A stretch of 64,000 nt of DNA, from NCBI GenBank assembly GCA_028713125.1, contig JAQTOU010000001.1, positions 452,273 through 516,272 on the forward strand, written 5' to 3'. This stretch comes from Elusimicrobiales bacterium (GTDB taxonomy: Bacteria; Elusimicrobiota; Elusimicrobia; Elusimicrobiales; UBA9959). Below the pieces are notes generated by a model. That model was given only the letters and a program-made list of their open reading frames with translations, had not been told where the DNA came from and made no database searches. The position numbers were made by a program, and so were the translations under genes. Of the stretch, positions 15,239 through 57,586 are shown in pieces (position 1 is the first letter of the stretch; every line of letters starts with the position of its first letter).

Positions 15239-15925
15239 TCATTCCCAGTCGTCTGTCCGGATATTCTCCGCGGGGACGCCGTCCGCCGCCAGGGAACTCT
15301 TGAAATTCTTTATCATTACGGGCGGCCCCGAGATAAAATAAACCGCGGCGGGCCCGTTCTCTTTCAAAATAGTCTTGATGTCCAGCCGGCCGTCCTTTTC
15401 CTCGTTCAGAACCTTGAAGCTGAAAGATGGATTGACCGCCCGGGCCTTTTCCAGGTTGGCAGCGTAAAGCTGGTGCGATGGATTCCTCACGCCGAAATAA
15501 AGCCTGGGCTCAGGGTAGGCCGCGAAAGTTTTGGAAGTGAAAAGCGAAAGAAAAGGCGTTATCCCTGTCCCGCCCGCTACAAAGACCGACTTCTTCCCGT
15601 CCTGTCCTTCCTGGAAAAGGTCCCCGTAGGGAAGCTTCACATGGATGACCTTCCCCGGCGCCAATTCAACCGCCATGCGCGCGGTGAATTTTCCTTTCGC
15701 GGCGAAAGTTATTTTTATAGTTTCGTCGTCGGGAGAGCTCTGCATCGAGAAACAGCGCGATTCCGGCCAGGGCCCTGCGGGATCGTATTCGTCCAGCGCG
15801 AGGTGCAGGAACTGGCCGGGATTGTACTTATAGGCCTTCTCGAGCGGGCGCAGGGTCACGGTCCTGATGTCGGCGACAGGATTCTCCACTGAAACCACTT
15901 CGGACCTGTATTTTTTTACGATCAT
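15239..15925 (-). CDS. FAD/NAD-binding flavin reductase (FNR family), AscD/DdhD-like without ferredoxin domain
   Basis: SRCFSMQSSP, FVAGGTGITPFLSL, YFISGPPVMI; no 2Fe-2S cysteine motif in 228 aa. Confidence 0.75.
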   Translation of the reverse strand: MIVKKYRSEVVSVENPVADIRTVTLRPLEKAYKYNPGQFLHLALDEYDPAGPWPESRCFSMQSSPDDETIKITFAAKGKFTARMAVELAPGKVIHVKLPYGDLFQEGQDGKKSVFVAGGTGITPFLSLFTSKTFAAYPEPRLYFGVRNPSHQLYAANLEKARAVNPSFSFKVLNEEKDGRLDIKTILKENGPAAVYFISGPPVMIKNFKSSLAADGVPAENIRTDDWE

Positions 15926-17226
15926 TTTGAGTGCTTGCCCATGAATTCGGCCACGCAGTCCCCGACATAGGAGAACATCTCCTCCGTCATTCCGGGATAG
16001 GTACCGAGGAAGAAAGTATTGTTCATGATGAAATCCGTGACCGGGAGCTTCCCCTCCACCCGGCAGGGCCTGTCTATAAAGGCCGGCTGGCGGAGGATAT
16101 TCCCGGCGAAGATATTCCTGGTCTCGATGCGGCGCTCGTTCAGGAAAGTCACCAGCTCATTGCGGGTGAAAGGAGCGTCCTCTTTAACCGACAGGATATA
16201 GGTGAACCAGGAAGGGTCCGCGTCCGGCGTGGCTTCCGGGAGCAGGAAGTATTTGGAGTAAGCGGAGAACATCTCCTGGTAGCGCTTGAAATTCGCGCGC
16301 CGCTTCCCGCCGAAGGTCTCCAGCTTGTCCATCTGGGCGGAACCGATAGCCGCCTGCATATCGGTCATCTTCAGGTTATAGCCTATCTCGGAATAGACGT
16401 ATTTATGATCGTAGCCGACGGGCAGGGTTCCGAACTGCTGGGTGAAGCGCTTGCCGCAGGTATTGTTCTCCCCGCCGGCGCAGTAACAGTCGCGGCCCCA
16501 ATCGCGGAAGGAGCGCACTATCTGGGCCAGCTGCTCATTATTAGTGACCACGGCGCCCCCCTCCCCGGTGGTGATATGGTGGGCGGGATAGAAAGAGATA
16601 GTGGCGATATGGCCGAAAGTCCCGGTGTATTTCCCTTTATAGCGGCTGCCGAAAGCGTCGCAATTGTCCTCTATAAGCCAGAGGTCATGCTCTTTGACTA
16701 TCTTAAGCACCGCGTCCAGGTCGAAAGGATTGCCGAGGGTATGGGCGATGAAGACAGCGCGGGTTTTGGGCGAGACGGCTTTTTTAAGCGCTTCAACGTC
16801 GATATTGTAAGTGGGGAGCTGCACGTCCACGAAAACCGGGATCAGGCCGTTCTGGAGTATGGGCGTAACGGTGGCCGGGAAGCCGGCCGCCACGGTGATC
16901 ACTTCGTCGCCGGGGACCAGCCTTTTCTTGCCAAGCTTCTTAGAGGTCAGCGCGGAAAGAGCTATCAAATTGGAGGAAGAGCCGGAATTCGTCAGGATCA
17001 CGTTCTCTACGCCGAGGAAATCGGAGATCTTCTCGGCGAAGCTTTCGGAGTACCGGCCCTCGGTCAGCCAGAAATCGAGCGAAGAATCCACCAGGGCCAC
17101 AAGTTCTTTCTCGTCGAAAACCCGGCCCGCGTAGCGGACCGTGTCTTTTTCCCTGTTAAAAGGCTTGGGCGCGAAAGCTGTCGAATGGTAGGCCTTAACC
17201 GCGCTTAAAATTTCTTCTCTCTTCAT
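15922..17226 (-). CDS. rfbH: CDP-4-dehydro-6-deoxyglucose 3-dehydrase (RfbH/DdhC)
   Basis: DegT fold with [2Fe-2S] ligand pattern DCYCAGGENNTCGKRF (CX1CX7C); H instead of K in PAHHITTGEGGAV. Confidence 0.92.
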   Translation of the reverse strand: MKREEILSAVKAYHSTAFAPKPFNREKDTVRYAGRVFDEKELVALVDSSLDFWLTEGRYSESFAEKISDFLGVENVILTNSGSSSNLIALSALTSKKLGKKRLVPGDEVITVAAGFPATVTPILQNGLIPVFVDVQLPTYNIDVEALKKAVSPKTRAVFIAHTLGNPFDLDAVLKIVKEHDLWLIEDNCDAFGSRYKGKYTGTFGHIATISFYPAHHITTGEGGAVVTNNEQLAQIVRSFRDWGRDCYCAGGENNTCGKRFTQQFGTLPVGYDHKYVYSEIGYNLKMTDMQAAIGSAQMDKLETFGGKRRANFKRYQEMFSAYSKYFLLPEATPDADPSWFTYILSVKEDAPFTRNELVTFLNERRIETRNIFAGNILRQPAFIDRPCRVEGKLPVTDFIMNNTFFLGTYPGMTEEMFSYVGDCVAEFMGKHSK

Positions 17227-17256: not shown

Positions 17257-18318
17257 TCATTCCGCGTATTCGCGTATCTGCGCCAGGCAAACTTCAAGCA
17301 TCTCTTCCCCGTTCTGGTAAGCGCGGGTCCAGGAGACTATTTTGTCTATAGCCTGGCCCACATGCCAGCGGGGCGTCCAGCCGAGCTCCCGGCGGGCCTT
17401 GGAGGAATCCAGCTTAAGGAAATGCGCCTCATGCGGATGCCGGCCTTTGTCTATCACATAGCCCGGGGCTTCCGGCCAGGCGGAGAACATCCGCTTCACT
17501 ATCCATTCCACGTCCTTCGCGTCCCCGGCGTCGGGACCGAAGTTCCAGGCCTCGCCGCAGCGTGGGCCGTGTGTATAAAGAAGTTCGGCCAGCCGCAGGT
17601 AGCCCGCAAGCGGTTCAAGCACATGCTGCCAGGGGCGGATAGCGCGCGGATTGCGTATCCGGACTTTCTCCCCTTTCAGTGCGGCGCGTATCATATCGGG
17701 GATAAGCCGGTCCGCGGCCCAGTCCCCGCCGCCTATCACATTCCCGGCGCGGGCCGAAGCCACGGCCACGCCGTGTTTTTCATATCCGGCCGGATTGAAA
17801 AAAGAATTCCTGTAAGCGGAGGTGACCAGCTCGGAGCAGGCTTTGCTCGAAGAGTAAGGGTCATAGCCGCCAAGCGGCTCGCCCTCTTTATACCCGCGCA
17901 AATGCTCTTTATTCTCATAGCATTTGTCCGTTGTGACATTGACCACGGCTTTTACCGAAGGGCAGGCCCGCACAGCCTCGAACATATTCACCGCGCCCAT
18001 CACGTTCGTGGCGTAAGTTTCCGCCGGGGTCCGGTAGGATTCCCTTACCAGCGGCTGCGCGGCCATATGTATCACTATCTCCGGCTTCGCTTCCAGCATG
18101 GCTTTTTTAAATTTAGCGGCGTCGCGCACATCGCCGATATTCGACTTAACGCGCTTGTCCAGGCGGCATAACTTGAAAAGGCTGGGCTCAGTAGGCGGCT
18201 TAAGCGCATAGCCGGTAACCTTCGCGCCGAGCGAATCAAGCCAGATAGAAAGCCAGGCGCCTTTAAAGCCGGTATGACCGGTCAGGAATACTTTCTTGTT
18301 TTTCCAGGAGCCTTTCAT
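17257..18318 (-). CDS. rfbG: CDP-glucose 4,6-dehydratase
   Basis: [38 protein letters not shown] at 18316-18318 overlaps rfbF stop. Confidence 0.92.
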
Positions 18319-19091
18319 TTCCAGACCTTCCAGGGCGCGTCGCCGGACTTCCAGTGGTTTTCCAGGTCCAGCTTGTCGCGCAGGGTATCCATGCATTTCC
18401 AGAAACCGGTATGGGTATAAGCGGCCAGCTTCCCGTCGGCCGCCAAATTCTCGAGCGGGGCGCGCTCCCAGATAGTAGGGTCGCCGTCCTTTATGTAATC
18501 GAAGATCCCCGGCTCCAGCACGAAGAAGCCGCCGTTTATCCAGGCCCCGTCGCCCTGCGGTTTCTCCTGGAAAGAGCTCACCGCCCCGTCCGCCGCTATA
18601 TTGACCGCGCCGAAGCGCCCCTGCGGCTGTATCGCCGTCATCGTAGCCAGCCCGCCTTTTTTCTTATGGTAGGCCGCGAGCTTTTTAAGGTCCACGTCCG
18701 CCACCCCGTCGCCGTAGGTAAGCATGAAAGGTTTTTTGCCCACGTATTCCTGCACGCGCTTTATGCGCCCGCCGGTCATGGTATTAAGCCCGGTGTCCAC
18801 AAGCGTCACCTTCCAGGGCTCGGCTTTCTTATGGTGCACCTCCATCTTATTGTTCTTCATGTCGATGGTCACGTCGGCCTGGTGCAGGAAATAGTTCGCG
18901 AAATATTCCTTTATCATGTACCCTTTATAGCCTAGGCACAGGACGAAGTCGTTGAAGCCGTAATGCGAGTAGATCTTCATGATATGCCAGAGCATCGGCT
19001 TCGTGCCTATCTCGGTCATCGGCTTCGGCTTAATATCCGTCTCCTCGCTAAGCCGAGTCCCCATCCCGCCCGCCAGAATAACAACTTTCAT
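18315..19091 (-). CDS. rfbF: Glucose-1-phosphate cytidylyltransferase
   Basis: [45 protein letters not shown]. Confidence 0.93.
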
Positions 19092-23378: not shown

Positions 23379-24422
23379 TTAATTAGCGCCGCGGACAAGC
23401 CTCTCCGCCGCTTTCTTTATGTCGGCCGCGCCGGGATAAAAAGCCTTCTCCAGCTCGGCGCCGGCGGGCGTCGGCACGTCGGGCAGGCCCACGCGCAGCA
23501 CCGGGGCCTTCAGGGCCCCGAAAGCTTTCTCCGCGGCCTGCGCCGCTATCTCGGCGGAGATCCCAGTCATCACCCCGCCGACGTCCGCTATCACAAGCCT
23601 GCCGGTCTTCCGGACGGAAGCAAGGATGGTCTCCATATCCAGCGGCTTGATGGTGCGGGGGTCGATCACCTCGGCGCTTATCCCGTCCTTCTCCAGCTCC
23701 CGGGCGGCCTTTACCGCCTCGTAAACCATCAGGGAGACCGCCACTATAGTAATGTCCTTCCCCTCTTTGCGGACCACGGCTTTCCCGAAAGGCGCTTCAT
23801 AAATTTCTTCCGGCACATAGCCCTTGAAATCGTAAAGCCAGCGGTGCTCGCAGAACATGACCGGGCCGCCGTCCCTGACCGCGGCTATCAGCAGGCCTTT
23901 CGCGTCGTAGGGCGTGGCCGGCGTTACCACCTTGAGCCCGGCGAAATGAGTGAACAGGCCGTGCAGCGCCTGCGAATGCTGGGCGGCCGAGCCCCAGCCC
24001 CTGCCTATTATGCTTCGTATCACCAGCGGCACGGTGACCTTCCCGCCGGTCATATAGCGCCACTTCGCGGCGTGGTTGACTATCTGGTCCAGGCACATCG
24101 GGAGGAAGTCCATCCGCATATGGATGAAGACCGGGCGCATACCGCACATCGCGCTCCCGGCGGCTATCCCGGTAAGGCCGTTCTCGGCGATAGGCATGTC
24201 CATCACGCGGTCCGGGCCGAACTCCCTGGCCAGGCCGACGGTGGAGCCGAAGACCCCGCCCGGGTCGTCTATCCCCTCGCCTATCAAATACACTTCGGGG
24301 CTGGTCGCAAGAAGCTGGCGCTGCGCCTCCAGCAGGGCGGCGCGGTAAGTGATATTCCTCAGGCCCTCTTTCTCCGAGGCCTCGAAATCCTGTTTGTCGA
24401 TAAGTACTTTTGTCCAGGGCAT
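23379..24422 (-). CDS. TPP-dependent dehydrogenase E1 beta subunit (transketolase C-terminal type)
   Basis: NITYRAALLEAQRQLLATSPEVYLIGEGIDDPGGVFG...PIAENGLTGIAAGSAMCGMRPV; start trimmed to MPWTKVL. Confidence 0.88.
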   Translation of the reverse strand: MPWTKVLIDKQDFEASEKEGLRNITYRAALLEAQRQLLATSPEVYLIGEGIDDPGGVFGSTVGLAREFGPDRVMDMPIAENGLTGIAAGSAMCGMRPVFIHMRMDFLPMCLDQIVNHAAKWRYMTGGKVTVPLVIRSIIGRGWGSAAQHSQALHGLFTHFAGLKVVTPATPYDAKGLLIAAVRDGGPVMFCEHRWLYDFKGYVPEEIYEAPFGKAVVRKEGKDITIVAVSLMVYEAVKAARELEKDGISAEVIDPRTIKPLDMETILASVRKTGRLVIADVGGVMTGISAEIAAQAAEKAFGALKAPVLRVGLPDVPTPAGAELEKAFYPGAADIKKAAERLVRGAN

Positions 24423-24423
24423 A

Positions 24424-25386
24424 TTAAGAGTACACGTCCGTGTAAAGTTCCTCGGGGCTCTGGTGAGGCGAAGCCTTGGCAAAGCTCCAGGCTGCTTCTA
24501 TCTCGGCGTTTATCTCCGCTTTGATACCGTCCAGGAGCGCGTCGTCAAGAACGCCTTCCGCGCGCAGCTTCTTCAGATAGTTCTCCACCGGGCATTTCTT
24601 CTGCCACTCGAAAAATTCTTCTTTAGGCCGGCAGCCTTTCTCGTAATCGCAGTCGGGCCCGACGTGTCCCTTCCACCTGTAAGTGGGGAATTCGAGGAAG
24701 TACGGGCCATTCCCGGCCCTTATATGCGCCACGGCTTTCTCCGCCGCGGCGCAGACGGCCTCGGGGTCGTTCCCGTCGGCCAGCTCGAAAGGTATGCCGA
24801 AGCCGGGCGCCCGCTTCGAGATCGTCCCCTCGGCGTGCCGGGCGGACTGGGGCGAATTGGTGGCGTAAAAATTATTCTCGCAGACGAAAAGCACCGGCAG
24901 CTTCCTGAGGGCCGCGAAATTCATCGTCTCCTGCAGCACGCCCTCGTCGCTGGCCCCGTCGCCGAAATAAGTTACGGACAGGCGCTTCTCGCCTTTCATT
25001 TTAATAGCAAGCGCGGCGCCGGCCCCAAGCGGGATGCTCCCGCCGACTATGGCCGAGGTCCCCATGCAGTTCTTGTCGGTATCGACGAAATGCATCGAAC
25101 CGCCCTTGCCCTTCGCGCAGCCGGTGGCTTTGCCGTAAAGCTCGGCCACTATCGGCTTCAGGTCCGTGCCTTTGCAAAGATAATGGCCGTGGTTTCGGTG
25201 GGTGCTGAAAACATAATCCTCGGCCTTCAAATTCTGCGAAACCCCGGCGGCCACGGCCTCCTGGCCGATATAAAGATGCACCGGCGTCTTCATCTCCTGC
25301 TCGCCGTAAACGGCGACTATCTTTTCTTCGAACAGCCGCGCTCGAAGCATTTTTTTCAAAAGGTCTATTTTGATCTCGGGCTTCAT
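24424..25386 (-). CDS. TPP-dependent dehydrogenase E1 alpha subunit
   Basis: GKGGSMHFVD, FGDGASDEGVLQETMNFAALRKLPVLFVCENN TPP motif. Confidence 0.9.
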   Translation of the reverse strand: MKPEIKIDLLKKMLRARLFEEKIVAVYGEQEMKTPVHLYIGQEAVAAGVSQNLKAEDYVFSTHRNHGHYLCKGTDLKPIVAELYGKATGCAKGKGGSMHFVDTDKNCMGTSAIVGGSIPLGAGAALAIKMKGEKRLSVTYFGDGASDEGVLQETMNFAALRKLPVLFVCENNFYATNSPQSARHAEGTISKRAPGFGIPFELADGNDPEAVCAAAEKAVAHIRAGNGPYFLEFPTYRWKGHVGPDCDYEKGCRPKEEFFEWQKKCPVENYLKKLRAEGVLDDALLDGIKAEINAEIEAAWSFAKASPHQSPEELYTDVYS

Positions 25387-40475: not shown

Positions 40476-41453
40476 TCAGGCCAGACGCCTGGCCGCATTG
40501 ATTATATCCGCGCAATGCAGATAATATGCCTTTTCAAGCGAAATACTCGCGGGCGCGGGGCAGTCAGGGAGCGTAAGGCGTACAAGAGGCTTTTTAAGCC
40601 TTACCCCGGCCTCGGCCACAATAGCGGCGATCTCAGCCGAAATTCCGAAAGATCGCCACCCGCCGTCGGCAATAAGCAACCGGCCTGTCTTACGGACCGA
40701 GCGCAGTATAGCCGCTGTATCGAGCGGTTTAATCGTGCGCAAATCAATAACCTCGGCGGCTATTCCGCCTTTCTTAAGTTCGTCCGCGGCTTTAACTGCT
40801 TCCCTGGCCAAATAAGAGCAGGCCACTATGGTAAGGTCACTGCCCTTACGCCGTATAGCAGCTTTACCTATCGGGACTTCGTATATTTTCTCCGGCACGA
40901 CAGCTTCGTCCCGGTAAAGCCACCTGTCGTCCATAAACACTACGGGGTTATGGTCCTTTATAGCGGCAACCATTAAACCCTTCGCGTCATAAGGCGTGGC
41001 AGGCATAACTACTTTGAGCCCCGGGATATGCGCGAACATAGCGTGAAAAGACTGGGAGTGCTGCGCCGCCTGCTCACCGCCGCGGTTTATTATCCCCCAT
41101 ACGACCACAGGAGCGTTGCCGCTACCGCCGCTCATATAGTGCCAGTTGGCTGCCTCGTTGATAATGGGGTCGATGGCGTAAAGCATAAAGTCCACACGCG
41201 GATGCACCACCACGGGCCGCATTCCGGCGATAGCAGCGCCAACAGCCGCGCCGGTTATACCATTTTCGGAAACAGGGGTATCTATAACCCGCTTAGCGCC
41301 AAAACGTTTAAGCAATCCCAGGGCTGTATTTCCCACATACCATGGACTATTTACGCCCTGACCTATCAAGAAGACGGATTTATCAGCCGCCATCGTCTGA
41401 TGAAGGGCCTCGTTTATCGCAAGGCTGTAAGATAGGCGCCTATTTTGTGACAT
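40476..41453 (-). CDS. TPP-dependent dehydrogenase E1 beta subunit, second copy
   Basis: LSYSLAINEALHQTM, PVSENGITGAAVGAAIAGMRPVVVHPRVDFMLYAIDPIINEAANWHYM; start trimmed to MSQNRRL. Confidence 0.88.
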   Translation of the reverse strand: MSQNRRLSYSLAINEALHQTMAADKSVFLIGQGVNSPWYVGNTALGLLKRFGAKRVIDTPVSENGITGAAVGAAIAGMRPVVVHPRVDFMLYAIDPIINEAANWHYMSGGSGNAPVVVWGIINRGGEQAAQHSQSFHAMFAHIPGLKVVMPATPYDAKGLMVAAIKDHNPVVFMDDRWLYRDEAVVPEKIYEVPIGKAAIRRKGSDLTIVACSYLAREAVKAADELKKGGIAAEVIDLRTIKPLDTAAILRSVRKTGRLLIADGGWRSFGISAEIAAIVAEAGVRLKKPLVRLTLPDCPAPASISLEKAYYLHCADIINAARRLA

Positions 41454-42420
41454 ACTTCTCCAAGTGGCTAGGGTTAGGGCGCGGGCTTCTGCGGGCAAAG
41501 GCAACGGCGTCGGCAACTTCTGAAGCAGCCTGATACTTCAGAGCATTCAAAGCGGTAGGCGGCAGGAGTTTCTTTGAAGAGAGATAATGCTCGAAGCGGG
41601 TAATCGGGTCCTTTTTAAGCCAGCGTTTAAGTTCGGCAGGCGGACGTATGTCCGTATGAAGGCCCTGGATCGCATCATCGGGACCGACATGCCCCCTGAA
41701 GCGGTAAGTAAGGCACTCTATAAAGGCGGGCCCTTTGCCGGACCGGCAAAGCGCTACGGCCTCTTTAGCAGCTTCATGCACTTTCAAGACGTCGTTGCCG
41801 TCTATACGCCAGGTCTTGATACAAAAGGGTTCCGCTATGCGGCTTATATTTTCACTGTTCCGGCACTCTCGTATGGGCATGTGCGTGGCATATAGGTTGT
41901 TCTCACACACAAATATGAGCGGCAACTTCAAGAGAGAGGCAAAATTAAGGCTTTCGTATATACCGCCTTCACCTGTGGCGCCGTCCCCAAAAAACGCGGC
42001 GGCGACGCGTTTATCACCCCGTATATGCGCGGCCAAAGCAGCCCCAAGGGCCAGAGATATAGTGCCGCCTACGATGGGAGCAGCGCCAAGCATACCCTTT
42101 TCCGGGGCGACCAAGTGCATTGAACCGCCGCGCCCTTTTGCGCAGCCGGCCTCGCGACAGAAAATTTCAGCCATCATACGCCGGAGACTGCCGCCCTTGG
42201 CGACATAATGCCCATGGGAGCGATGCGTGCCGAACACATAGTCTTTATCGGTAAAGCAGGAAATCACCCCTGCAGCAACAGCTTCCTGGCCGGTGTAAAG
42301 GTGGCAAGGCGTGCGAATCTCGCCTTTAGCGATAGGCTCAACCAGGCTCTCCTCGCACTCACGGATGCGGTGCATAGTGAGAAGCAAGTTGGCTAAAAAG
42401 TTTTTATTATAACCCATCAC
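41440..42420 (-). CDS. TPP-dependent dehydrogenase E1 alpha subunit, second copy
   Basis: GRGGSMHLVAPEKG, FFGDGATGEGGIYESLNFASLLKLPLIFVCENN. Confidence 0.9.
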   Translation of the reverse strand: MMGYNKNFLANLLLTMHRIRECEESLVEPIAKGEIRTPCHLYTGQEAVAAGVISCFTDKDYVFGTHRSHGHYVAKGGSLRRMMAEIFCREAGCAKGRGGSMHLVAPEKGMLGAAPIVGGTISLALGAALAAHIRGDKRVAAAFFGDGATGEGGIYESLNFASLLKLPLIFVCENNLYATHMPIRECRNSENISRIAEPFCIKTWRIDGNDVLKVHEAAKEAVALCRSGKGPAFIECLTYRFRGHVGPDDAIQGLHTDIRPPAELKRWLKKDPITRFEHYLSSKKLLPPTALNALKYQAASEVADAVAFARRSPRPNPSHLEKYVTK

Positions 42421-48033: not shown

Positions 48034-49026
48034 CTAATAAATATACGAAGCGAACAATTTCTTTATGCTGACCAAAACCATCCTTATAGGCAGGTAGACA
48101 ACTCCTATGTACAAAGATGGATGAAAACGGTACTTCTTAAGAATAGTGGACAACCCCCCATTAATATCGAATTTATACTGTTCTTTGTCTTTCCAGATAT
48201 TTGCGGTCCAGGGGATCAAGAAGCGGAACATTAATTTGGCTTTCTCATTAGATAAAGTGAGCCACGAAATCATTTTTTTTGCTTTATAATCTTCAAGCAG
48301 ACCCAGGTAATTAGTAACAAACACATCGTAAATATTGTAACCACTTTTTGATGCCGGAGGTATGGAATCGAAGATTACTGAATTGTCAATCCAAACAGAT
48401 TTTCCAAGGCTTATCTGGCGGAATAGAACTCCATTTATCAGCCGCAGCTCCCTCACTGTGTTAAAATTATCAATGGTTGTAAAATCATCCCTCCACATTC
48501 CGAAACTGCCTATCCAGGTTGAATGAAATGAAGCAATTCCCACAAAAGAATCTAGATTTTTGCAAAAGACAGAATTCGGCCCTCTAACCCGCCCATTGGA
48601 GAAAAAAACGATGTCCCTGTCTTTCACCCGCTGGGTCAGAACCCTGATAATAGTATCCAGCGTGTCGATCCGATGCATTAACGTGTCGTTATTAAGCTTA
48701 AGGAATATACCTTTCCCGTACGACATAACTCTCTCATAATTTGTGTCTACGATATTTTCCGGATTCCTGTAATAGCGAATCTTATCTGGATACAGCCGGA
48801 CGTATCTATCGGAAATCTCTTTTGTATTATCATCTGAGCAATTATCCGAGATAATAATTTCAACATCATATGTCTCACAAAATCTACGTTGGGCAATAAT
48901 TGAAAGAAGCGTCTTTTCAAGAAATATAGCTCGGTTATATGTTGGGATACATACAGACAAAATGATTCCTTTCTCACGCTCTGAGTGTGACTGCCCATTT
49001 TGGGTATTACATCTAGCACTAATCAT
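48034..49026 (-). CDS. GT2 family glycosyltransferase
   Basis: LSVCIPTYNRAIFLEKTLLSII, EIIISDNCSDDNT. Confidence 0.87.
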   Translation of the reverse strand: MISARCNTQNGQSHSEREKGIILSVCIPTYNRAIFLEKTLLSIIAQRRFCETYDVEIIISDNCSDDNTKEISDRYVRLYPDKIRYYRNPENIVDTNYERVMSYGKGIFLKLNNDTLMHRIDTLDTIIRVLTQRVKDRDIVFFSNGRVRGPNSVFCKNLDSFVGIASFHSTWIGSFGMWRDDFTTIDNFNTVRELRLINGVLFRQISLGKSVWIDNSVIFDSIPPASKSGYNIYDVFVTNYLGLLEDYKAKKMISWLTLSNEKAKLMFRFLIPWTANIWKDKEQYKFDINGGLSTILKKYRFHPSLYIGVVYLPIRMVLVSIKKLFASYIY

Positions 49027-50419
49027 ACTGAACCCCGCCAGCCGCTATAAAACCAGAAGAGTGCCACCGGGAACGACAATAAGCGAACACTATACTTCCC
49101 CAGATCAGACCAACAAGCGCAAGGACGGCATACAGAGCAGCAATAGATAATGCCGTATAATGAGAAAATCCGAAAAGGCCGATAGACATAGAAACCGCAA
49201 TAAAAATTGAATTCGCAAGAAATGGTTCACGCTTATGCGCCCGCAAATAGAATGCTTCTGCGAACACAATTTGGTTAATAACTGAGGAGGAGCAAAGCAT
49301 CAGAAGTATCCTCCACTCGGGCAAGCGACCAGCAAACCGCGGAATCCAGTCTGCAAGATGTGGAACCAAAAGAATCGCAATTACAGATCCAGTTATTGCC
49401 GCAATAACAGCTTGCGGCATAGCTTTCCAAAACAGAGAATCCATGGATTTCCATTCTCGCTTTGAAGCCATTTGCCCCCAGATTGCTGACTTGGTTGATG
49501 TCCAGTTTGTTGCGAATGTGCTAATAAATCCTGAAATGCTCATAGCCAGTCCAAAGCGCCCAGCTTCTTCTGGTCCCAATTGACGAAAGACTACCGGCAA
49601 CATAGCATTAAAAATAAACCAGCCTGACACCCAGCTTAGGGCGATGCGCCACTGAAAAGGAAACACATCTTTAATCCAATCAACCTGTATTTCTTTTCCG
49701 AGGCCTTTTGTCCCTGAGATAACATTACGCAACAATCTCCATATCAGCCAGAAGTTAAGCATTAGCGCAACAGCGCTGGCCATAGGCACGGAATATAACT
49801 TAAATCCAGCCAATAATCCGGCAATGGTTAAAAGAATCTGGGTGGCGCTGCCCCATAAGCGCACACGAATAGACTCCGCCACAAGGCCCATTCCTTCAAC
49901 AATCGCCCCCAAGCTGTTCACAAACACGCCACCAGCTGCTGCAAGAACCATTATTAACCAAGGAAATAACCAAGAGGCAGAAACGCCACCGGCAGAAGTA
50001 GAGAAGAACCAGAAACCCGCCGGGAAGAGAAGCACTGCAATAAGAAGTGAAACAATCACATACCAATACCGGATAAAACGGATCGTGGCAGAAAAACGCT
50101 CCAGGTAAATAGTAGGGCCTGATGCTCCGGATTTTAAGTCTATCTTTAAATGTGCCGTTTCATGGGCGATCATCTGGATAGCTACAGTGCCAAACCCCAT
50201 TTCAAGAAAGACCTGTAAAGCGAGTATGCTTCCGAATGTGTAATAGAACCCCTGCTCTACTGAAGTTAACCTCGTAAGTATTAACGGGATGGTTATCAGG
50301 CTGCCAGCCGTAGCAAACACCCGTGACAAAATAGAATAAAAAACAGCCTTATCAACGCCAGCCAGGCGCCGGAATCGATGAAAAGGTTCCAAAACGAATG
50401 TGGTAAATGAAAGACTCAT
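49019..50419 (-). CDS. Second polysaccharide flippase (Wzx-like)
   Basis: polytopic, SILSRVFATAGSLITIPLILTRLTSVEQGFYYTFGSILALQVFLEMGFGT; ATG at 50417-50419 overlaps upstream TGA. Confidence 0.78.
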   Translation of the reverse strand: MSLSFTTFVLEPFHRFRRLAGVDKAVFYSILSRVFATAGSLITIPLILTRLTSVEQGFYYTFGSILALQVFLEMGFGTVAIQMIAHETAHLKIDLKSGASGPTIYLERFSATIRFIRYWYVIVSLLIAVLLFPAGFWFFSTSAGGVSASWLFPWLIMVLAAAGGVFVNSLGAIVEGMGLVAESIRVRLWGSATQILLTIAGLLAGFKLYSVPMASAVALMLNFWLIWRLLRNVISGTKGLGKEIQVDWIKDVFPFQWRIALSWVSGWFIFNAMLPVVFRQLGPEEAGRFGLAMSISGFISTFATNWTSTKSAIWGQMASKREWKSMDSLFWKAMPQAVIAAITGSVIAILLVPHLADWIPRFAGRLPEWRILLMLCSSSVINQIVFAEAFYLRAHKREPFLANSIFIAVSMSIGLFGFSHYTALSIAALYAVLALVGLIWGSIVFAYCRSRWHSSGFIAAGGVQYD

Positions 50420-51468
50420 GAAAAACTTAATACTGTACGAGTGAAGCCGTCTTTTATTCCCACTAAAGGTTTCCACCCCAAAGCTTTTAATGCCGAGGAA
50501 TCAAGGCAAGCTTTGGGGACCGGGCTTTTTATATATCCAGGGCTGCCGTTACTAGCAGAAAACTTAACAGAAATATTTTTCTTCGGGAAAAGGCCGGCAA
50601 GGGTCCGAGCTAACTCCAGGATACTTACACAGGCGGTTTCATTACAAACATTATAAGCTTTGCCTCTTTCGCCTTTTAACAAGAGAACGAACATTCCCAA
50701 CACTGCGTCAGTTACATAACAGAAGGACCTGGAGGCAGAACCATCACTATTAAGTTCTATGTCACGACCCTCTACGATATCCCTCACAAAATCTGCAAAC
50801 ACCCGCCCGTCATCCAGGCTCAATCCGGGCCCATATGTATGGGCGAGGCGCGCGATTACGGTTGGAACCCCATATTGTGCCTGCCAAGAGGCGCAGAGCG
50901 TCTCCCCAGCCCGTTTGCTTTCGCCATAACATGACCGCACATTAACCGGGTCCAGCCAACCGTAATCCAATTCCTTAGTAGGAACTTTATTATCCGGCAC
51001 TATTCCGTATATTTCCCCCCCGCTCACGAATAAAAAGCCCTTGCTTTTGCTGTCCCTTGCAAGAGATAGAAGATTATTGGTCCCTATTATATTAGGCAAC
51101 ATAGTGCCGACCGGATCAATCCCGTAATACTTAGGGCTAGCCTGGCTTGCAGCATGAATTATGTAATCTACGGGACCTTTGATTTCCAGCGGGCCTGAGA
51201 CATCCTGCACTATTAATTCCAGATCCTTACGATCCAGGAAATCCGCAAATTTTTTCCGTGCCTTCTCCCTTGAACGAACAAGGGCCACAACTCGACATTC
51301 ACGGCCTTTTAATACTGTTTCGTTAAGAGACAGAAGTGTCGCTGCAAAATAATAAGGGATAAGGCCGGACGCGCCGGTAACAAGCACCCGGCTCGCTGCA
51401 AACTGCTCCCAGATGAAGTCCCCGTTCTTTATTATATTTTGCAGGTCTTCTTGGACTATCTTATTCAT
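50416..51468 (-). CDS. NAD-dependent epimerase/dehydratase
   Basis: VLVTGASGLIPYYFAATLL; SCYGESKRAGE. Confidence 0.82.
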   Translation of the reverse strand: MNKIVQEDLQNIIKNGDFIWEQFAASRVLVTGASGLIPYYFAATLLSLNETVLKGRECRVVALVRSREKARKKFADFLDRKDLELIVQDVSGPLEIKGPVDYIIHAASQASPKYYGIDPVGTMLPNIIGTNNLLSLARDSKSKGFLFVSGGEIYGIVPDNKVPTKELDYGWLDPVNVRSCYGESKRAGETLCASWQAQYGVPTVIARLAHTYGPGLSLDDGRVFADFVRDIVEGRDIELNSDGSASRSFCYVTDAVLGMFVLLLKGERGKAYNVCNETACVSILELARTLAGLFPKKNISVKFSASNGSPGYIKSPVPKACLDSSALKALGWKPLVGIKDGFTRTVLSFS

Positions 51469-53270
51469 AAACTTTCAGGAACGGGCTTAACAATCATTTC
51501 TGAGTAGAACTGTTCTCTCGGCAGGAAAGGATACATATCCTCAAGCGGTTTTGACACCATTTGCCCATTGCTTTTCCTGGCTGAAGCCACTTTGGGAAGG
51601 AAAGGTTGTAAAGGATCCATTATTACCTCTATAACGGCCGGGCCCTTAGAAGTTAAGGACTTCTTAAAAACCTCATCTAGAGATGAATGATTTTCCATCC
51701 GATAATATGGCAGACCGTAAGCGGCCGCCTGACGGGAAATATCAACACAGGAAACTCCGCTTGATGGGTCACACCCGACCAGCCTCCCGTTAAAATACGC
51801 GTTCTGTGTATGTTTAATGCTCAAATAGCCATTATTATTGAAGACAAAAAGCTTAATAGGAAGTTTATAGTGCTTGATAGTCTGCAGTTCCTGGATATTC
51901 ATTTCCAAACCGCCTTCTCCATGAACACAAACCACAGGTTTGCGGCCATGGGCAAAGCAAGCGCCGATAGCGGCAGGCAAACCATAGCCCATGGGAGAGA
52001 ATCCTCCATTAGTAAACGCATGCTGCCCCTGCTTATTCTTAAATGCCACTGTAAAAGAGTAGAAAGTGGCCCCCTGATCGGTGACCAGCACATCGTCTTT
52101 CTTCATATGCGCTGACAAAACATCAAAGAAATAATAAGAATTAACATACTTCTTAGCCTGTGAAATATTCCCTGTTATTACAGGGAACAGTTTCCGCCAA
52201 TGCCTGCACTTCCCCAACCACTGTGCCCTTTGTTTTACCAAGCCGCTCTTCGGCGCTAAGGCGTTAAGGGCAGAGATAAATTTCTTCGCATCCGCGCGCA
52301 CTTTTATGGCAGTCTTAATATTGCCATGCTGCATCTGCACCTTATCTATATCAATAATTATCTTTTTTGCCCCTCTCCCAAAAAGTTCAGTTTCATAACC
52401 AATGGTGGGGTAAGACAACCTGCAGCCGATCGCTAAAATGAGGTCGGCGTTTTGCACCGCGAAATTTCCGGCTCGCTGGCCATTTATCCCGATCCTTCCG
52501 GCCAACATCCCGTAAGAGTCTGGGACAATGTCAAAAGCATTTTTTGAGGTAACAACCGGGATTTGGTATTTTTCCACGAATTGCAGGAATTTTTCAGCGG
52601 CACCCGACAGAATTATCCCGTGTCCCGCTAACACAATAGGGCGCTTGGCCGCGACTAATAGTTTAGCTATACGGCCTACTTGCTGCGGTGTAAATTCAAT
52701 TTCAGTGAAACCTTCGTCTTCCGGAACGAATCTTCTCAATTTAGTGGGAATTATATGCGCAGATTGGACATCCAATGGAATATCCACCCATACCGGGCCG
52801 GGGCGCCCGGCTTTGGCTAGGTAAAAAGCTTTTTCAATATGGTACCGGATTTCCGCCGGATCTTTTACCGTAACTGCGTACTTGGTAACGCTTTCAACTA
52901 TCCTAGTTATGTCGGCCTCGTGTACACCCTTCTGGCGAAGTCCGGTGTCACCCATGAGTCTTCTGGAATTAGCCTGACCAGAAAGCATTAGAAGCGGGAC
53001 AGAATCGTTCCAGGCGCACATAAGACCAGTTATCGCATTAGTTCCGGCCGGGCCTGTTGTGACTAAAGCGACCCCGATATTACCGGTTATTCGCTGATAA
53101 CCTTCAGCCGCCATAGCGGATGCTTGTTCGTGATGGTTGCATACATAGGCAACGTCCTTCCTGCGGCCAAGAGAATCTATCAGATACATTCCACCGCCGC
53201 CCGAAACCATAAAGACATGTTTAACACCCTTGCGGGCGATGAAGTCTATTACATAGTCTGACAAAAGCAT
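51465..53270 (-). CDS. Acetolactate synthase-like TPP-dependent enzyme
   Basis: HHEQASAMAAEGYQRITG, GPAGTNAITGLMCAWNDSVPLLMLSGQ, HGEGGLEMNIQELQTIKHYKLPIKLFVFNNNGY. Confidence 0.88.
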   Translation of the reverse strand: MLLSDYVIDFIARKGVKHVFMVSGGGGMYLIDSLGRRKDVAYVCNHHEQASAMAAEGYQRITGNIGVALVTTGPAGTNAITGLMCAWNDSVPLLMLSGQANSRRLMGDTGLRQKGVHEADITRIVESVTKYAVTVKDPAEIRYHIEKAFYLAKAGRPGPVWVDIPLDVQSAHIIPTKLRRFVPEDEGFTEIEFTPQQVGRIAKLLVAAKRPIVLAGHGIILSGAAEKFLQFVEKYQIPVVTSKNAFDIVPDSYGMLAGRIGINGQRAGNFAVQNADLILAIGCRLSYPTIGYETELFGRGAKKIIIDIDKVQMQHGNIKTAIKVRADAKKFISALNALAPKSGLVKQRAQWLGKCRHWRKLFPVITGNISQAKKYVNSYYFFDVLSAHMKKDDVLVTDQGATFYSFTVAFKNKQGQHAFTNGGFSPMGYGLPAAIGACFAHGRKPVVCVHGEGGLEMNIQELQTIKHYKLPIKLFVFNNNGYLSIKHTQNAYFNGRLVGCDPSSGVSCVDISRQAAAYGLPYYRMENHSSLDEVFKKSLTSKGPAVIEVIMDPLQPFLPKVASARKSNGQMVSKPLEDMYPFLPREQFYSEMIVKPVPESL

Positions 53271-54023
53271 TTATTTTCCTCTCGCGATATCGGCCATCTT
53301 TTTAAATTCCTCATACAAAACCCAGGTATCTACTTTATATGTCAGGAACTTAATGCCAAGCTTTCTAAAATAGTGAAGTTCATCTTCATTCTTGAACAGG
53401 CAACCTACAGCCTTACCCGCCTTTCTAATTTTTACAGCAGACTCCTCAAGCACTTTTAGCACCCTTGGGTCGCTGGTCTGCCCCGCTATTCCAAGCGCAG
53501 AAGAAATATCGTAAGTCCCGACGTAAACCAGGTCAAGATTTTTTACCGCAAGTATATCATCCAAGTTATCTATACCATTCTCCCCTTCAACGATCACACC
53601 CTTCAGAACTGTGCGGTTAGCCCTTTGCACAAATCCGGACTCGTGAAAATATCCACCTGCCTTTGTATAAGGGGAGTAACCCCTTTCCCCATCCGGCGGG
53701 TACATCATAAAACTAACAGCGCGCTGAGCATCTTCTCTGGTGGAAACATGTGGGACTATCACTCCACCCGTTCCCGTATCCAAGGCTTTCAAAACAGCTG
53801 CCTCACTATGCTCGCCGACGCGTATGATGCTGCTTCCACCGGCGGCTTCTGCTGCCATCACCATCCGCTGCGCAACCACATAATCCGCTGGCCCATGCTC
53901 CAGGTCTATCAAGACAAAATCCAGGCCGGCTTTAATCATCACATTTGCGGCCTCAGGAGAGGGCATAATGGCCCAACTCCCGAGGATCTCATTGCCGCCT
54001 TCTAGTTTTTCCTTCAGGCTCAT
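53271..54023 (-). CDS. HpcH/HpaI-family class II aldolase
   Basis: LGSWAIMPSPEAANVMIKAGLDFVLIDLEHGP; MMYPPDGERGYSPYT. Confidence 0.88.
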   Translation of the reverse strand: MSLKEKLEGGNEILGSWAIMPSPEAANVMIKAGLDFVLIDLEHGPADYVVAQRMVMAAEAAGGSSIIRVGEHSEAAVLKALDTGTGGVIVPHVSTREDAQRAVSFMMYPPDGERGYSPYTKAGGYFHESGFVQRANRTVLKGVIVEGENGIDNLDDILAVKNLDLVYVGTYDISSALGIAGQTSDPRVLKVLEESAVKIRKAGKAVGCLFKNEDELHYFRKLGIKFLTYKVDTWVLYEEFKKMADIARGK

Positions 54024-55753
54024 ACGCTTTCCACTAGCACGTTACGGTAGTACTTTTTATGAGAAGTTGGAGTCATTATTGCAAACGGAACACCTTTTGA
54101 CTCCATGTAATCAGCAGCCCTCCGGAGTTCATCGGCCAGACCGGCATACATTTTAGAGGAATCCTCTGCCTTTTCAGGAACGTCATTCTCATTGTAGAAA
54201 TACTTTACTTCTTCACCGTCCTTACCAAGATATCCATCCATGCCGGCAACAAATATCTCTGAAGCCCCCATTAAATAGGCGGATAGCGCCGCCGATATGG
54301 CCACATTTAGATAAGCACACTGCTGAACAGTGTTCTTAACAGGAGTGTCACTCCCAAGAGATTCGCGTATAGGGAATACAATGAACTTGTTATTCGTGCT
54401 CTTCGTAATCATGGATTCATCGAAGTAATCTGGCAAGAGCAAACAGGTTTCCTTAGCGACAGTAGACACATATTTAAGGAACCTCTTCTTACTTACAAAA
54501 GCGTGATAATCAGTTTTATAAAGACCTTGCAAATAATTAAGCCCGATGGTAACGCAGTTGTTTTTCTTCGCGAATTCATTTATCTCATCTTTATATTTCA
54601 GTATCGAGGGGCCGTTCGCTAATATCAAAAACTTCCTACCTTTATGCAGACCTACCCCGGAAAATTCCTTAACCCTGTTTCCAAGCTCAGGGTCAGCTAT
54701 TAGATGTCTGTCGATATCCCGCCACAAGTCGTATCCTATATCGCAAGACCCGGGACGGAAAAGACGTTCCTGCAGAGCCCCATCCATATCGTTGATAGAA
54801 TAAGAAACAGGACATTTCTTTTTTACATATTCGGCAGCATTAAATATTTCATCAACAGTATAAGCCTTCTTAAGGAACAGGGCATCAACATAGTAGGGGT
54901 GAACGTTTGCAACACCACTGATAAGAGCAGATAATCCATACCCCCACTCATACTTCTTTGAAAGCGGGGCATAAAATCTATCGACAACGTCGAGGTACGG
55001 AACAGGGTTATATTTCCCGTTCTCTTGCTTTGCGAGGTATGAAAGGAGCACCTCTATAGGCAGGTTTCCCGCCCCACGCCCCATACCGTAGGCTGAGGCA
55101 TCAACGCAATATGCACCTTCGGAGATAGCCTGGAGCGTATTAGCGAAAGCCATCTGCAAGTTATTATGGGCGTGATAGCCGATACGCTCAAACCCGGCTT
55201 CCCTCAGCTTCGAGAACTGGTCGGAGATATCCTTTGGGAGGAAAGAACCGAAACTATCCGCGAAAGCGACACATTCCATCAGGCTCTTTCCGCTCCAGTT
55301 TTTAAGCTGTAAATAATTCTCAGCACTCAACTCTGATGAGGCCATCAGATTCATGAAAACTTCATAGCCCTTTTTATGAAAGTTCTCTACAAGAGCGAAG
55401 GCTTTTTCCAACTCATAGGGATAAGCGGCCACCCTGACCGCCGAGACACAGGTCCCGGACCCTTTCCTGTCTTTCAGCAACTCCTCTGTGACTTTGCCCG
55501 CATCCATCATTATAGCGATCTTGCATTTGTCATTGGGGGTTATTACGGAGGTCAAATAAGCATCTTCGCAGACTCCGTACGGGCCTAAAGCCGGGGCGGA
55601 GGCCGAAGGCTGTGTTTTGTAGCCTATCTCGAAATAATCCACACCGCTCTTAAGAGCTGCAAAGTATGAAGCTCGCACACACTCATCAGTAAAAGTCCAT
55701 TTGTTGATATGCCCGCCGTCACGTATCGTACAGTCCAATATTTTAGTTTTCAT
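54020..55753 (-). CDS. DRE-TIM-type aldolase (HMGL-like) fused to C-terminal DUF115/sialyltransferase-like domain
   Basis: N-term KILDCTIRDGGHINKWTFTDE...GYHAHNNLQMAFAN; C-term KFLILANGPSILKYKDEINEF...GASEIFVAGMDGYLG. Confidence 0.72.
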   Translation of the reverse strand: MKTKILDCTIRDGGHINKWTFTDECVRASYFAALKSGVDYFEIGYKTQPSASAPALGPYGVCEDAYLTSVITPNDKCKIAIMMDAGKVTEELLKDRKGSGTCVSAVRVAAYPYELEKAFALVENFHKKGYEVFMNLMASSELSAENYLQLKNWSGKSLMECVAFADSFGSFLPKDISDQFSKLREAGFERIGYHAHNNLQMAFANTLQAISEGAYCVDASAYGMGRGAGNLPIEVLLSYLAKQENGKYNPVPYLDVVDRFYAPLSKKYEWGYGLSALISGVANVHPYYVDALFLKKAYTVDEIFNAAEYVKKKCPVSYSINDMDGALQERLFRPGSCDIGYDLWRDIDRHLIADPELGNRVKEFSGVGLHKGRKFLILANGPSILKYKDEINEFAKKNNCVTIGLNYLQGLYKTDYHAFVSKKRFLKYVSTVAKETCLLLPDYFDESMITKSTNNKFIVFPIRESLGSDTPVKNTVQQCAYLNVAISAALSAYLMGASEIFVAGMDGYLGKDGEEVKYFYNENDVPEKAEDSSKMYAGLADELRRAADYMESKGVPFAIMTPTSHKKYYRNVLVESV

Positions 55754-56516
55754 AGTCTCCTTTAAGCACTTTTATGCCAGTGAGCGACTCCGAAACATAT
55801 TTGCTGTATCTCTTTAGTTTTTCTATCGGCAACTGCCCGCTGGCTACAAGGACAGCGGTCTTAAGGCCGGCCTTGGCTGACATTCCCGCGTCAACTGGGG
55901 AATCCCCTATGGCTACCACAGCATCCCTGGTCAACCCCATATCACTTAAAGCTTTCAAGGCCGGAACTCCGGTACTTTTATCTTCAGTAGTCGTTTCGCG
56001 CCCTACTATGGAATCAAAATATTTATCGAGACCGGTATGCCGCAGTATCTTTCCCGCGGACACCGCGCTGTCGCTAGTCACTAGGGCCAACTTAAGGCCG
56101 GCGGCTTTTGCGTCACGAAGAAGATCTTCAGCTCCCGGAAGGACCAGGATATAAGACATAAGGTTCTTGTTGAAATCGTCCATAACCCTGTTAAAAATAT
56201 TTCCCAAATCTTCTTCCGAGGGAACCACCCTCATTGACCTGAGCCCGTCCAACAGCGCCTTTATGACCTCTTGGCGAGAAACGAGAGCCACAGGACCTTC
56301 GGGCAGCAGCCTCTCTGTTTCAGTGTCGTAACCCATAAAACCGCATAGCACCTTATGGGCTGACGGAGTTATACCATAAAATTCGGACGCTGCTTTCGCC
56401 CTTCTCTGCACTATTTCACCCCAATACAGGTGGCTATCGATAAGCGTTCCGTCTTTATCAAGGATGAGCCCGGAAATTCCCTGTATCTTCCAGCCATTCC
56501 CTTCCAATAGAGCCAT
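55743..56516 (-). CDS. HAD-family phosphatase
   Basis: GLILDKDGTLIDSH, LVTSDSAVSAGKIL, VVAIGDSPVDAGMSAKAG. Confidence 0.87.
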   Translation of the reverse strand: MALLEGNGWKIQGISGLILDKDGTLIDSHLYWGEIVQRRAKAASEFYGITPSAHKVLCGFMGYDTETERLLPEGPVALVSRQEVIKALLDGLRSMRVVPSEEDLGNIFNRVMDDFNKNLMSYILVLPGAEDLLRDAKAAGLKLALVTSDSAVSAGKILRHTGLDKYFDSIVGRETTTEDKSTGVPALKALSDMGLTRDAVVAIGDSPVDAGMSAKAGLKTAVLVASGQLPIEKLKRYSKYVSESLTGIKVLKGDYEN

Positions 56517-57505
56517 CAGCCCATGTACCTCAAAGAAGAATTCACAAGTTTTTCAGCTATGGTGCGTGCCTTGCTGAAAACTGCTTTATTAGTAAGGAAG
56601 TCCTCCCTATCTATATACCGCGAGACTATTTTCCGGGCGTAGGAGCCCAGCGCTACCCCATGGAAGCGTATCCCAAAAAACTTGGCCAGTTTGGCAGTCT
56701 TGGAATTCGTGCCCCCGGAAAGCATAAGATAGACAGGCAAAGCCGATCTGTAAACAATCTGTGCTGTAGCAAGAGCCTGCAGGGTAGTGGAGGCGAAATC
56801 GTCGCAGCCGCTCATCGGCGCTCCATCGGCTTGTATTATCGTAGAGCCTGGAGCGCGCTTTTCCATGAATCGGTTTATACGCGCCAGCAGCTGCTTATCA
56901 CCTAACCGGCTGCGGTCTATACAAAGGCTCAACATCCCACCGTAATCGGACTCCAACTCCTTCCATTGCGAAAAAGCAGACTCCTCATCTTGCGTAACGG
57001 CATGTAATTCGAAAGAGTCCAACCCGAGCCTTAAGAGCGGCGGCAGGACTTTAGACAGGGGTTTCGGTGCGGAAACTATAGTTATGGCTTTCTCAGGGCA
57101 GACTTTGGCGCAGGCGCCGCAGCCTATACACCGCTTTGACTGGACCTTGTACGGCTTGCCACGCAGGATGGCATGCTGTACTTGGCAGGCGGGCAGGCAC
57201 TTTCCGCAGCAAATACAGGCTGACCCAATAACCGCCTTACTGACATGCGGGTCACCCTTTATTCCAACGCTAACATTAAGAAATTTTTCTTTATGAGTTT
57301 TGCCCGCGCGTTCAAGGCCGCGCCCTGCGGCGAGCACGACCTCTTCTTTTGCTGAAAGGTCGAAATAGTTTGCCCCGGCAGATGCGTACAGGTAGACTAA
57401 CTTCTCTACTTCCGCAGCGTCCTCATTGCCGGCCCCGCAGACCAACTTAAAGCATTTCCGTTTCTCGAGAAGTTCCGCGAGCCCTTTGCTGATTTTTTTT
57501 TTCAT
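56516..57505 (-). CDS. 4Fe-4S protein, LdpA-like
   Basis: two ferredoxin clusters CICCGKCLPAC and CIGCGACAKVCPEKA; IIQADGAPMSGCDD and LMLSGGTNSKTAKLAKFFG...GVALGSYARKIV; start trimmed to MKKKISKG. Confidence 0.72.
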   Translation of the reverse strand: MKKKISKGLAELLEKRKCFKLVCGAGNEDAAEVEKLVYLYASAGANYFDLSAKEEVVLAAGRGLERAGKTHKEKFLNVSVGIKGDPHVSKAVIGSACICCGKCLPACQVQHAILRGKPYKVQSKRCIGCGACAKVCPEKAITIVSAPKPLSKVLPPLLRLGLDSFELHAVTQDEESAFSQWKELESDYGGMLSLCIDRSRLGDKQLLARINRFMEKRAPGSTIIQADGAPMSGCDDFASTTLQALATAQIVYRSALPVYLMLSGGTNSKTAKLAKFFGIRFHGVALGSYARKIVSRYIDREDFLTNKAVFSKARTIAEKLVNSSLRYMG

Positions 57506-57577
57506 ACTGGCCGCCTGCCGTCTAAGATAAATACTGCGCCGTACTGGCAGTCCGAAGGCACCCACCCAACATCCCTA

Positions 57578-57586
57578 ATTATATCA
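57578..57586 (-). promoter_or_regulatory. Extended -10 promoter element TGATATAAT
   Basis: revcomp of attatatca upstream of LdpA-like gene. Confidence 0.5.

Follow-up and report, generated by a model that had tools for sequence, protein, structure and literature searches.

What might be made by six consecutive genes that combine two pyruvate aldolases, a thiamine diphosphate (ThDP) enzyme, a HAD phosphatase, an Fe-S protein related to LdpA and a short-chain dehydrogenase/reductase (SDR) within one polysaccharide locus? The question is raised by a stretch of 64,000 nucleotides from an Elusimicrobiales bacterium (assembly GCA_028713125.1, contig JAQTOU010000001.1, positions 452,273 to 516,272), the whole of which is here called the window. 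We consider it probable that the six genes form a sugar-branching module with a dedicated donor, in which a custom hydroxylated 2-oxo acid is joined to a CDP-keto-sugar. In the order of steps that we infer, the DRE-TIM and HpcH/HpaI aldolases would condense an aldehyde with pyruvate to give the hydroxylated 2-oxo acid, with the LdpA-like Fe-S TIM barrel and the HAD phosphatase, which would take the place that an acetaldehyde-making DmpF has in relatives, either preparing the aldehyde or trimming a phosphorylated intermediate. The ThDP enzyme would decarboxylate the 2-oxo acid and add the acyl anion to the keto carbon of the CDP-keto-sugar, most likely CDP-4-keto-3,6-dideoxyglucose from DdhA-D of the same locus, whereupon the new branch ketone would be reduced by the SDR. 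Such steps would yield a C-branched sugar of higher carbon number, of the erwiniose/caryophyllose type, to be handed to the downstream glycosyltransferases and flippase.

The first-pass annotation of the window had suggested an undescribed route to a branched, higher-carbon or keto-acid-derived sugar or substituent. A sugar-branching, keto-acid-using module is indeed the best reading of our results, but the route is not a new kind of chemistry, since ThDP-dependent branching of CDP-4-keto-3,6-dideoxyglucose is already known: YerE places a pyruvate-derived C2 unit on this keto-sugar, giving yersiniose A, and ErwE, which prefers 4-hydroxy-2-oxo acids, gives erwiniose (PMC12247030). In the open-access literature we found no account of a YerE-like enzyme that receives its donor from a dedicated aldolase cassette, of an LdpA-family protein in a sugar-branching pathway, or of YerE-like enzymes being generally paired with varied makers of 2-oxo acids. 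The sugar class is known, and it is the donor cassette and its swapped outlet that appear new.

Similarity of the ThDP enzyme to YerE-like carboligases

Using phmmer with the full-length ThDP enzyme, the best relative in the PDB was 8rph (E=2e-141, 475 bits, residues 4-593), as compared with 259 bits for the best true acetolactate synthase (ALS). We take 8rph to be JanthE, also in view of the CDG motif visible in the alignment. JanthE is a YerE-like enzyme with CDG as its ThDP motif that couples 2-oxo acids to ketones (PMC12247030, PMC12188165). The window enzyme resembles the YerE-like enzymes (YerE, ErwE, MygE, MMAR_2332, JanthE) in having JanthE as its closest solved relative, in its catalytic glutamate (Glu48) and in the presence of a CDP-keto-sugar pathway in the locus. 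It differs from them in reading GEG at the motif GDG...N, as do the relatives L141 and L181 (24 sequences compared), and in sharing its operon with two pyruvate aldolases, a HAD phosphatase and an LdpA-like protein.

Could the genes instead serve ordinary catabolism or branched-chain amino acid metabolism and lie in the locus by chance? The top NCBIfam label of the ThDP protein is acetolactate synthase (TIGR00118), although its 374 bits fell below the equivalog cut-off of 538 bits, and neither a regulatory-subunit gene nor any other ilv gene was found in the operon. The genome gave no convincing match to ketol-acid reductoisomerase, with only 20-27 bits to KARI_N, in a search that matched in 14 control genomes. 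Its other ALS-like sequences were only a second YerE-like copy (41% identical) and a distant copy (25%) that reads like a pyruvate-decarboxylase-type enzyme. Because JanthE was much closer, no convincing reductoisomerase was seen and no acetohydroxyacid synthase-like gene was present except the YerE-like copy, a role of the enzyme in branched-chain amino acid synthesis is very unlikely. With the ThDP family, moreover, sitting in Ddh loci throughout the phylum, we rejected the explanation by ordinary amino acid or catabolic enzymes as hardly credible.

The second YerE-like gene (locus L139, G000:C11:581679-583457), which has the canonical GDG motif, lies about 65 kb beyond the window and is accompanied by NeuB, HAD and SDR genes. 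In a plasmid collection, the ThDP enzyme found only ALS-like matches at about 30%, and no relative spanning at least 80% of the DRE-TIM fusion was present.

Genomic linkage of the ThDP family to 2-oxo-acid-forming enzymes

Of 295 genomes searched in the phylum, 86 encoded the ThDP family (threshold E<=1e-120), with 98 members in total; DdhA lay within 10 kb of 62 of these genes, where random placement would give about 0.9. DRE-TIM matches were within 3 kb of a ThDP gene in 13 of 45 cases (0.07 expected), and each of the six best HpcH matches had a DRE-TIM gene no more than 3 kb away, with ThDP adjoining in four cases. The loci L182-L187 and L192 combine ThDP and Ddh genes with those for an acylating acetaldehyde dehydrogenase (DmpF-like) and a DmpG-like aldolase, an HpcH aldolase being additionally present in L182 and L184. 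The order in L182, DmpF-DmpG-HpcH-ThDP-SDR, mirrors that of the window, LdpA-HAD-DRE-TIM-HpcH-ThDP-SDR, where LdpA and HAD occupy the DmpF position. When it works in the direction of synthesis, the DmpF/DmpG pair yields 4-hydroxy-2-oxovalerate. In likeness to the donor logic of erwiniose (ErwE; PMC12247030), a DmpG-like aldolase would thus give a 4-hydroxy-2-oxo acid donor; but DmpG is accompanied by DmpF in the relatives and by the LdpA-like protein, the HAD phosphatase and a second aldolase in the window, and another aldehyde is therefore likely.

A gene for a 2-oxo-acid-forming C-C enzyme was found within 4 kb in 31 of 42 ThDP loci, with NeuB (13/42), diverged HpcH-like proteins (10/42) and PanB (1/42) as the other neighbours. 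Within 1 kb, such a gene was present for 29 of the 42 ThDP genes as compared with 56 of 492 other open reading frames (ORFs) of the same stretches (Fisher p ~4e-16), these stretches being centred on ThDP and the reference set being partly drawn from such neighbourhoods. That the ThDP genes (L139, L141, L173-L212) usually stand beside NeuB, HpcH-like, DmpG or PanB genes suggests a general pairing of a donor-making enzyme with a YerE-like carboligase across the phylum.

In the ThDP tree, all seven DmpG-linked enzymes fell within one clade of eight, of which the eighth member, L174, sits beside PanB, and the window enzyme was placed with moderate support (88/82) and on a long branch as the probable sister of this clade. 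To explain the linkage to aldolases, two changes along the tree sufficed, while 500 shuffles needed 7.5 on average. A grouping of the eight aldolase-linked enzymes that leaves out L174, which is nested among them and lies near a PanB-like gene, was rejected by the approximately unbiased test (p = 0.0005).

These results bear on a plain yersiniose-type branching, in which the ThDP enzyme would use pyruvate, the SDR would be a YerF-like reductase and the other four genes would make a separate sugar, for example an ulosonic acid. Pyruvate is the donor of YerE (PMC12247030), for roughly one in four ThDP loci no donor-making enzyme was recognised nearby, and in other phyla the four-gene cassette occurs without ThDP and is then followed by a gene for a KdsB-like CMP-transferase. 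However, the ThDP gene of the window directly abuts the HpcH gene, its product groups with the aldolase-linked enzymes, and no KdsB-like gene accompanies the cassette in the window, the only strong one of the genome lying about 270 kb off. We therefore regard yersiniose-type branching as rather unlikely, and prefer the module with its own donor-making enzymes.

The two aldolases

The DRE-TIM fusion consists of a DmpG-like aldolase (residues 1-313) and a C-terminal MptE-like/GT42-like domain (residues ~370-577), and its best PDB match was 3dxi at 160 bits. Its residues R11/D12/H15 and H194/H196 align with the catalytic R17/D18/H21 and the metal ligands H200/H202 of DmpG. The protein thereby has the N-terminal TIM barrel and all mapped catalytic and metal residues of the 4-hydroxy-2-oxovalerate aldolases DmpG/BphI, but differs from these in its extra domain, in not lying in a catabolic operon and in having no DmpF partner in the operon; none was matched elsewhere in the genome, in a search that matched in no control genome either. 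The C-terminal domain was MptE-like in four of five fusions (best 8.5e-9, window 0.008), with a weak CST-I match in one member. As the predicted structure (mean pLDDT 63) was poor in the C-terminal half, this domain is defined by weak Pfam matches only, and a transferase role for it would be a guess. The second aldolase belongs to the HpaI/GarL/YfaU family, with H45, R70, E149 and D175 of HpaI conserved and Q147 replaced.

The LdpA-like protein, the HAD phosphatase and the four-gene cassette

The LdpA-like protein matched Pfam LdpA_C (64.7 bits, cut-off 22.2) together with Fer4, and reached 127.9 bits against the clock-LdpA equivalog NF045992, for which the cut-off is 450. It shares the LdpA_C and Fe-S domains with the cyanobacterial clock-input protein LdpA (PMC13421787), but lies far under the equivalog score and is encoded in a biosynthetic operon. 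Its structure model (pLDDT 90) is a TIM barrel with an inserted 2[4Fe-4S] ferredoxin domain, in which eight cysteines were invariant among 22 aligned sequences. The nearest PDB folds were phosphate-binding TIM barrels (Foldseek E ~1e-6 to 1e-4), closest to tryptophan synthase alpha, class II aldolases and ribulose-phosphate epimerase. An SGGTN stretch is invariant in these proteins and they have a GS/GT-x-AR end (SGGTNS...GSYAR in the window), motifs that we would interpret as phosphate-binding. These findings may give the LdpA family, so far described as a redox sensor of the clock with unresolved mechanism, a probable catalytic fold and a metabolic context. The HAD phosphatase falls in an LdpA-linked subgroup, with a signature, DKDGT...H..(Y/F)W, common to HADs beside LdpA in other phyla.

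Within the phylum, LdpA-like proteins were present in only 3 of the 295 genomes, and in all three a full-length DRE-TIM fusion and HpcH were encoded no more than a few kb away. In both of the other two loci (L042, L043), B12-binding radical SAM genes directly adjoin the DRE-TIM fusion. Scanning the genome collection gave at least about 25 further real LdpA-like members, 50-odd weak ferredoxin-type matches (L081-L133) having been set aside. Outside the Gastranaerophilales, genes for LdpA, HAD, DRE-TIM fusion and HpcH co-occur in other phyla, with varying order and completeness, in records from Syntrophorhabdus, Omnitrophota, Nitrosomonadales, Micrarchaeota and Acidimicrobiales, these being metagenome-assembled genomes (MAGs) in which binning errors are possible. 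A polysaccharide-like locus of the picocyanobacterium Prochlorococcus (single-cell genome, L076) has, close to DdhA/DdhB, clustered genes for a DRE-TIM fusion, an LdpA-like protein, a HAD and a KdsB-like protein. Nine Gastranaerophilales-type MAG loci (L054, L058, L061, L063, L065, L067, L068, L077, L079) carry LdpA and the same HAD subgroup without aldolase genes, and L055 and L059 instead have LdpA followed by a standalone DRE-TIM gene.

In L042, L071, L072, L074, L075 and L078, the cassette ends in or precedes a KdsB-like CTP_transf_3 gene, whereas the window operon has the ThDP and SDR genes at that position. Since the two exchanged outlets, KdsB-like and YerE-like, are both consumers of 2-oxo acids, the cassette product would itself be a 2-oxo acid. 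It could also be that the aldolases, the HAD and the LdpA-like protein make a 2-keto-3-deoxy acid that is kept intact, activated by the distant KdsB and transferred by the GT42/MptE-like domain. The KdsB-like genes of the six loci just mentioned are in line with such an ulosonic-acid route, as are the MptE-like C-terminal domain with the weak CST-I match of one member, and KdsC/KdsB-type CMP-ulosonate pathways likewise combine a 2-oxo-acid-forming enzyme with a HAD, that enzyme being a phosphoenolpyruvate-dependent synthase where the window encodes pyruvate aldolases. The window, however, carries ThDP and SDR genes in the KdsB position; as ThDP enzymes decarboxylate 2-oxo acids, the ulosonic product would therefore be destroyed, and we find this route quite improbable.

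Returning to the joining of a custom 2-oxo acid to a keto-sugar, we would tentatively extend it, with less conviction than for the operon itself, to a modular system in which YerE-like enzymes across the phylum would each have a dedicated 2-oxo-acid maker (NeuB, DmpG/DmpF, HpcH-like, PanB or the LdpA/HAD/DRE-TIM-fusion/HpcH cassette), with a swap of maker altering the branch. The LdpA family would then comprise metabolic TIM-barrel Fe-S enzymes, and the 2-oxo acid of the cassette would have two outlets, CMP activation by KdsB-like enzymes or decarboxylative transfer by ThDP enzymes. The donor-making gene set of the window hints at such a widespread mix-and-match system, which predicts a way to diversify C-branched sugars by keeping one carboligase family and exchanging the donor-making enzyme. 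It also makes the physiological donors of YerE-like enzymes testable; in the literature, the natural substrates of JanthE are unidentified, and product structures are lacking for most of the predicted YerE-like enzymes, which number more than 200.

Proposed acceptor pathway and branch reduction

DdhA, DdhB and DdhC all score above the respective NCBIfam equivalog cut-offs (Table 1) and place a pathway to CDP-4-keto-3,6-dideoxyglucose in the same locus as the ThDP gene. The flavin reductase-type protein encoded next to them is probably the DdhD-like partner reductase of DdhC, and relatives of it (82-86%) adjoin Ddh and ThDP genes in L174, L179 and L180. The SDR has relatives at 45-48% identity in the ThDP loci L173, L186 and L203, and is proposed as the reductase of the branch ketone, in analogy to the octose ketoreductase of paulomycin biosynthesis (PMC4753412).

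Several observations weigh against the proposed module. The Ddh genes lie 32 kb from the operon, and RmlC-like and SDR genes near them might draw their product off into a different 3,6-dideoxyhexose. The ThDP enzyme has GEG in place of GDG and sits on a long branch, and the neighbour counts come from ThDP-centred stretches and a reference set taken in part from such neighbourhoods. In about half of the Gastranaerophilales loci, the LdpA and HAD pair occurs without aldolases, so that the role of this pair need not be donor supply. No other locus among those found had all six genes together. The six families recur not as one block but as two sub-sets: LdpA, DRE-TIM fusion, HAD and HpcH, in other phyla then with a KdsB-like gene, and, in relatives, DRE-TIM or HpcH with ThDP and Ddh genes.

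Gene order and setting of the operon

The first-pass annotation had described six consecutive, mostly overlapping genes in a polysaccharide locus; their coordinates, common strand and junctions were all confirmed, an arrangement not due to chance, and the families named were upheld by Pfam and NCBIfam (Table 1).

Table 1. Genes of the six-gene operon, in order of transcription, and of the acceptor pathway (positions in the window).
Gene product	Position	Strand	Matches and remarks
LdpA-like Fe-S protein	56516..57505	minus	ATG start
HAD phosphatase	55743..56516	minus	Pfam Hydrolase, 86 bits
DRE-TIM pyruvate aldolase fusion	54020..55753	minus	Pfam HMGL-like, 73.5 bits
HpcH/HpaI class II pyruvate aldolase	53271..54023	minus	Pfam HpcH_HpaI, 100.6 bits
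YerE/JanthE-like ThDP carboligase	51465..53270	minus	Pfam TPP_enzyme N, M, C
Extended SDR	50416..51468	minus	Pfam Epimerase, 139 bits
DdhA, glucose-1-phosphate cytidylyltransferase	18315..19091	minus	TIGR02623, 433.6 bits (cut-off 300.25)
DdhB, CDP-glucose 4,6-dehydratase	17257..18396	minus	TIGR02622, 499.1 bits (cut-off 278.45)
DdhC/RfbH, CDP-4-keto-6-deoxyglucose 3-dehydrase	15922..17226	minus	NF011936, 692.7 bits (cut-off 423)
Flavin reductase-type protein	15239..15925	minus	Flavin reductase family matches; overlaps DdhC

From the LdpA-like gene onwards, the first three junctions are overlaps of 1, 11 and 4 bases, the HpcH and ThDP genes directly abut, and the ThDP and SDR genes overlap by 4 bases. 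An alternative upstream GTG start at 57565 is possible for the LdpA-like ORF; relatives begin close to the ATG. Next comes a Wzx-like flippase ORF (49019-50476; WZX_like 90.6 bits, under the 300-bit cut-off) that shares up to 61 bases with the SDR gene, and the run extends past it into glycosyltransferase-like ORFs, so that the six genes stand at the 5' end of a longer run on the same strand. A promoter-like element at 57578-57586, earlier suggested as a possible driver of the unit, is a lone TATAAT-like hexamer not reported by a two-hexamer scan, and is thereby unsupported; the scan gave a single, different weak site at 57698-57670 (9/12 matches).

The polysaccharide locus also holds two pyruvate-dehydrogenase-E1-like alpha/beta pairs (24424-25386 with 23379-24482, and 41440-42420 with 40476-41516), with no recognised E2/E3 genes adjoining. 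In some antibiotics, sugars are branched by split E1 enzymes of this kind (alphaKADH2), and by this precedent the glycan may bear additional C2 branches.

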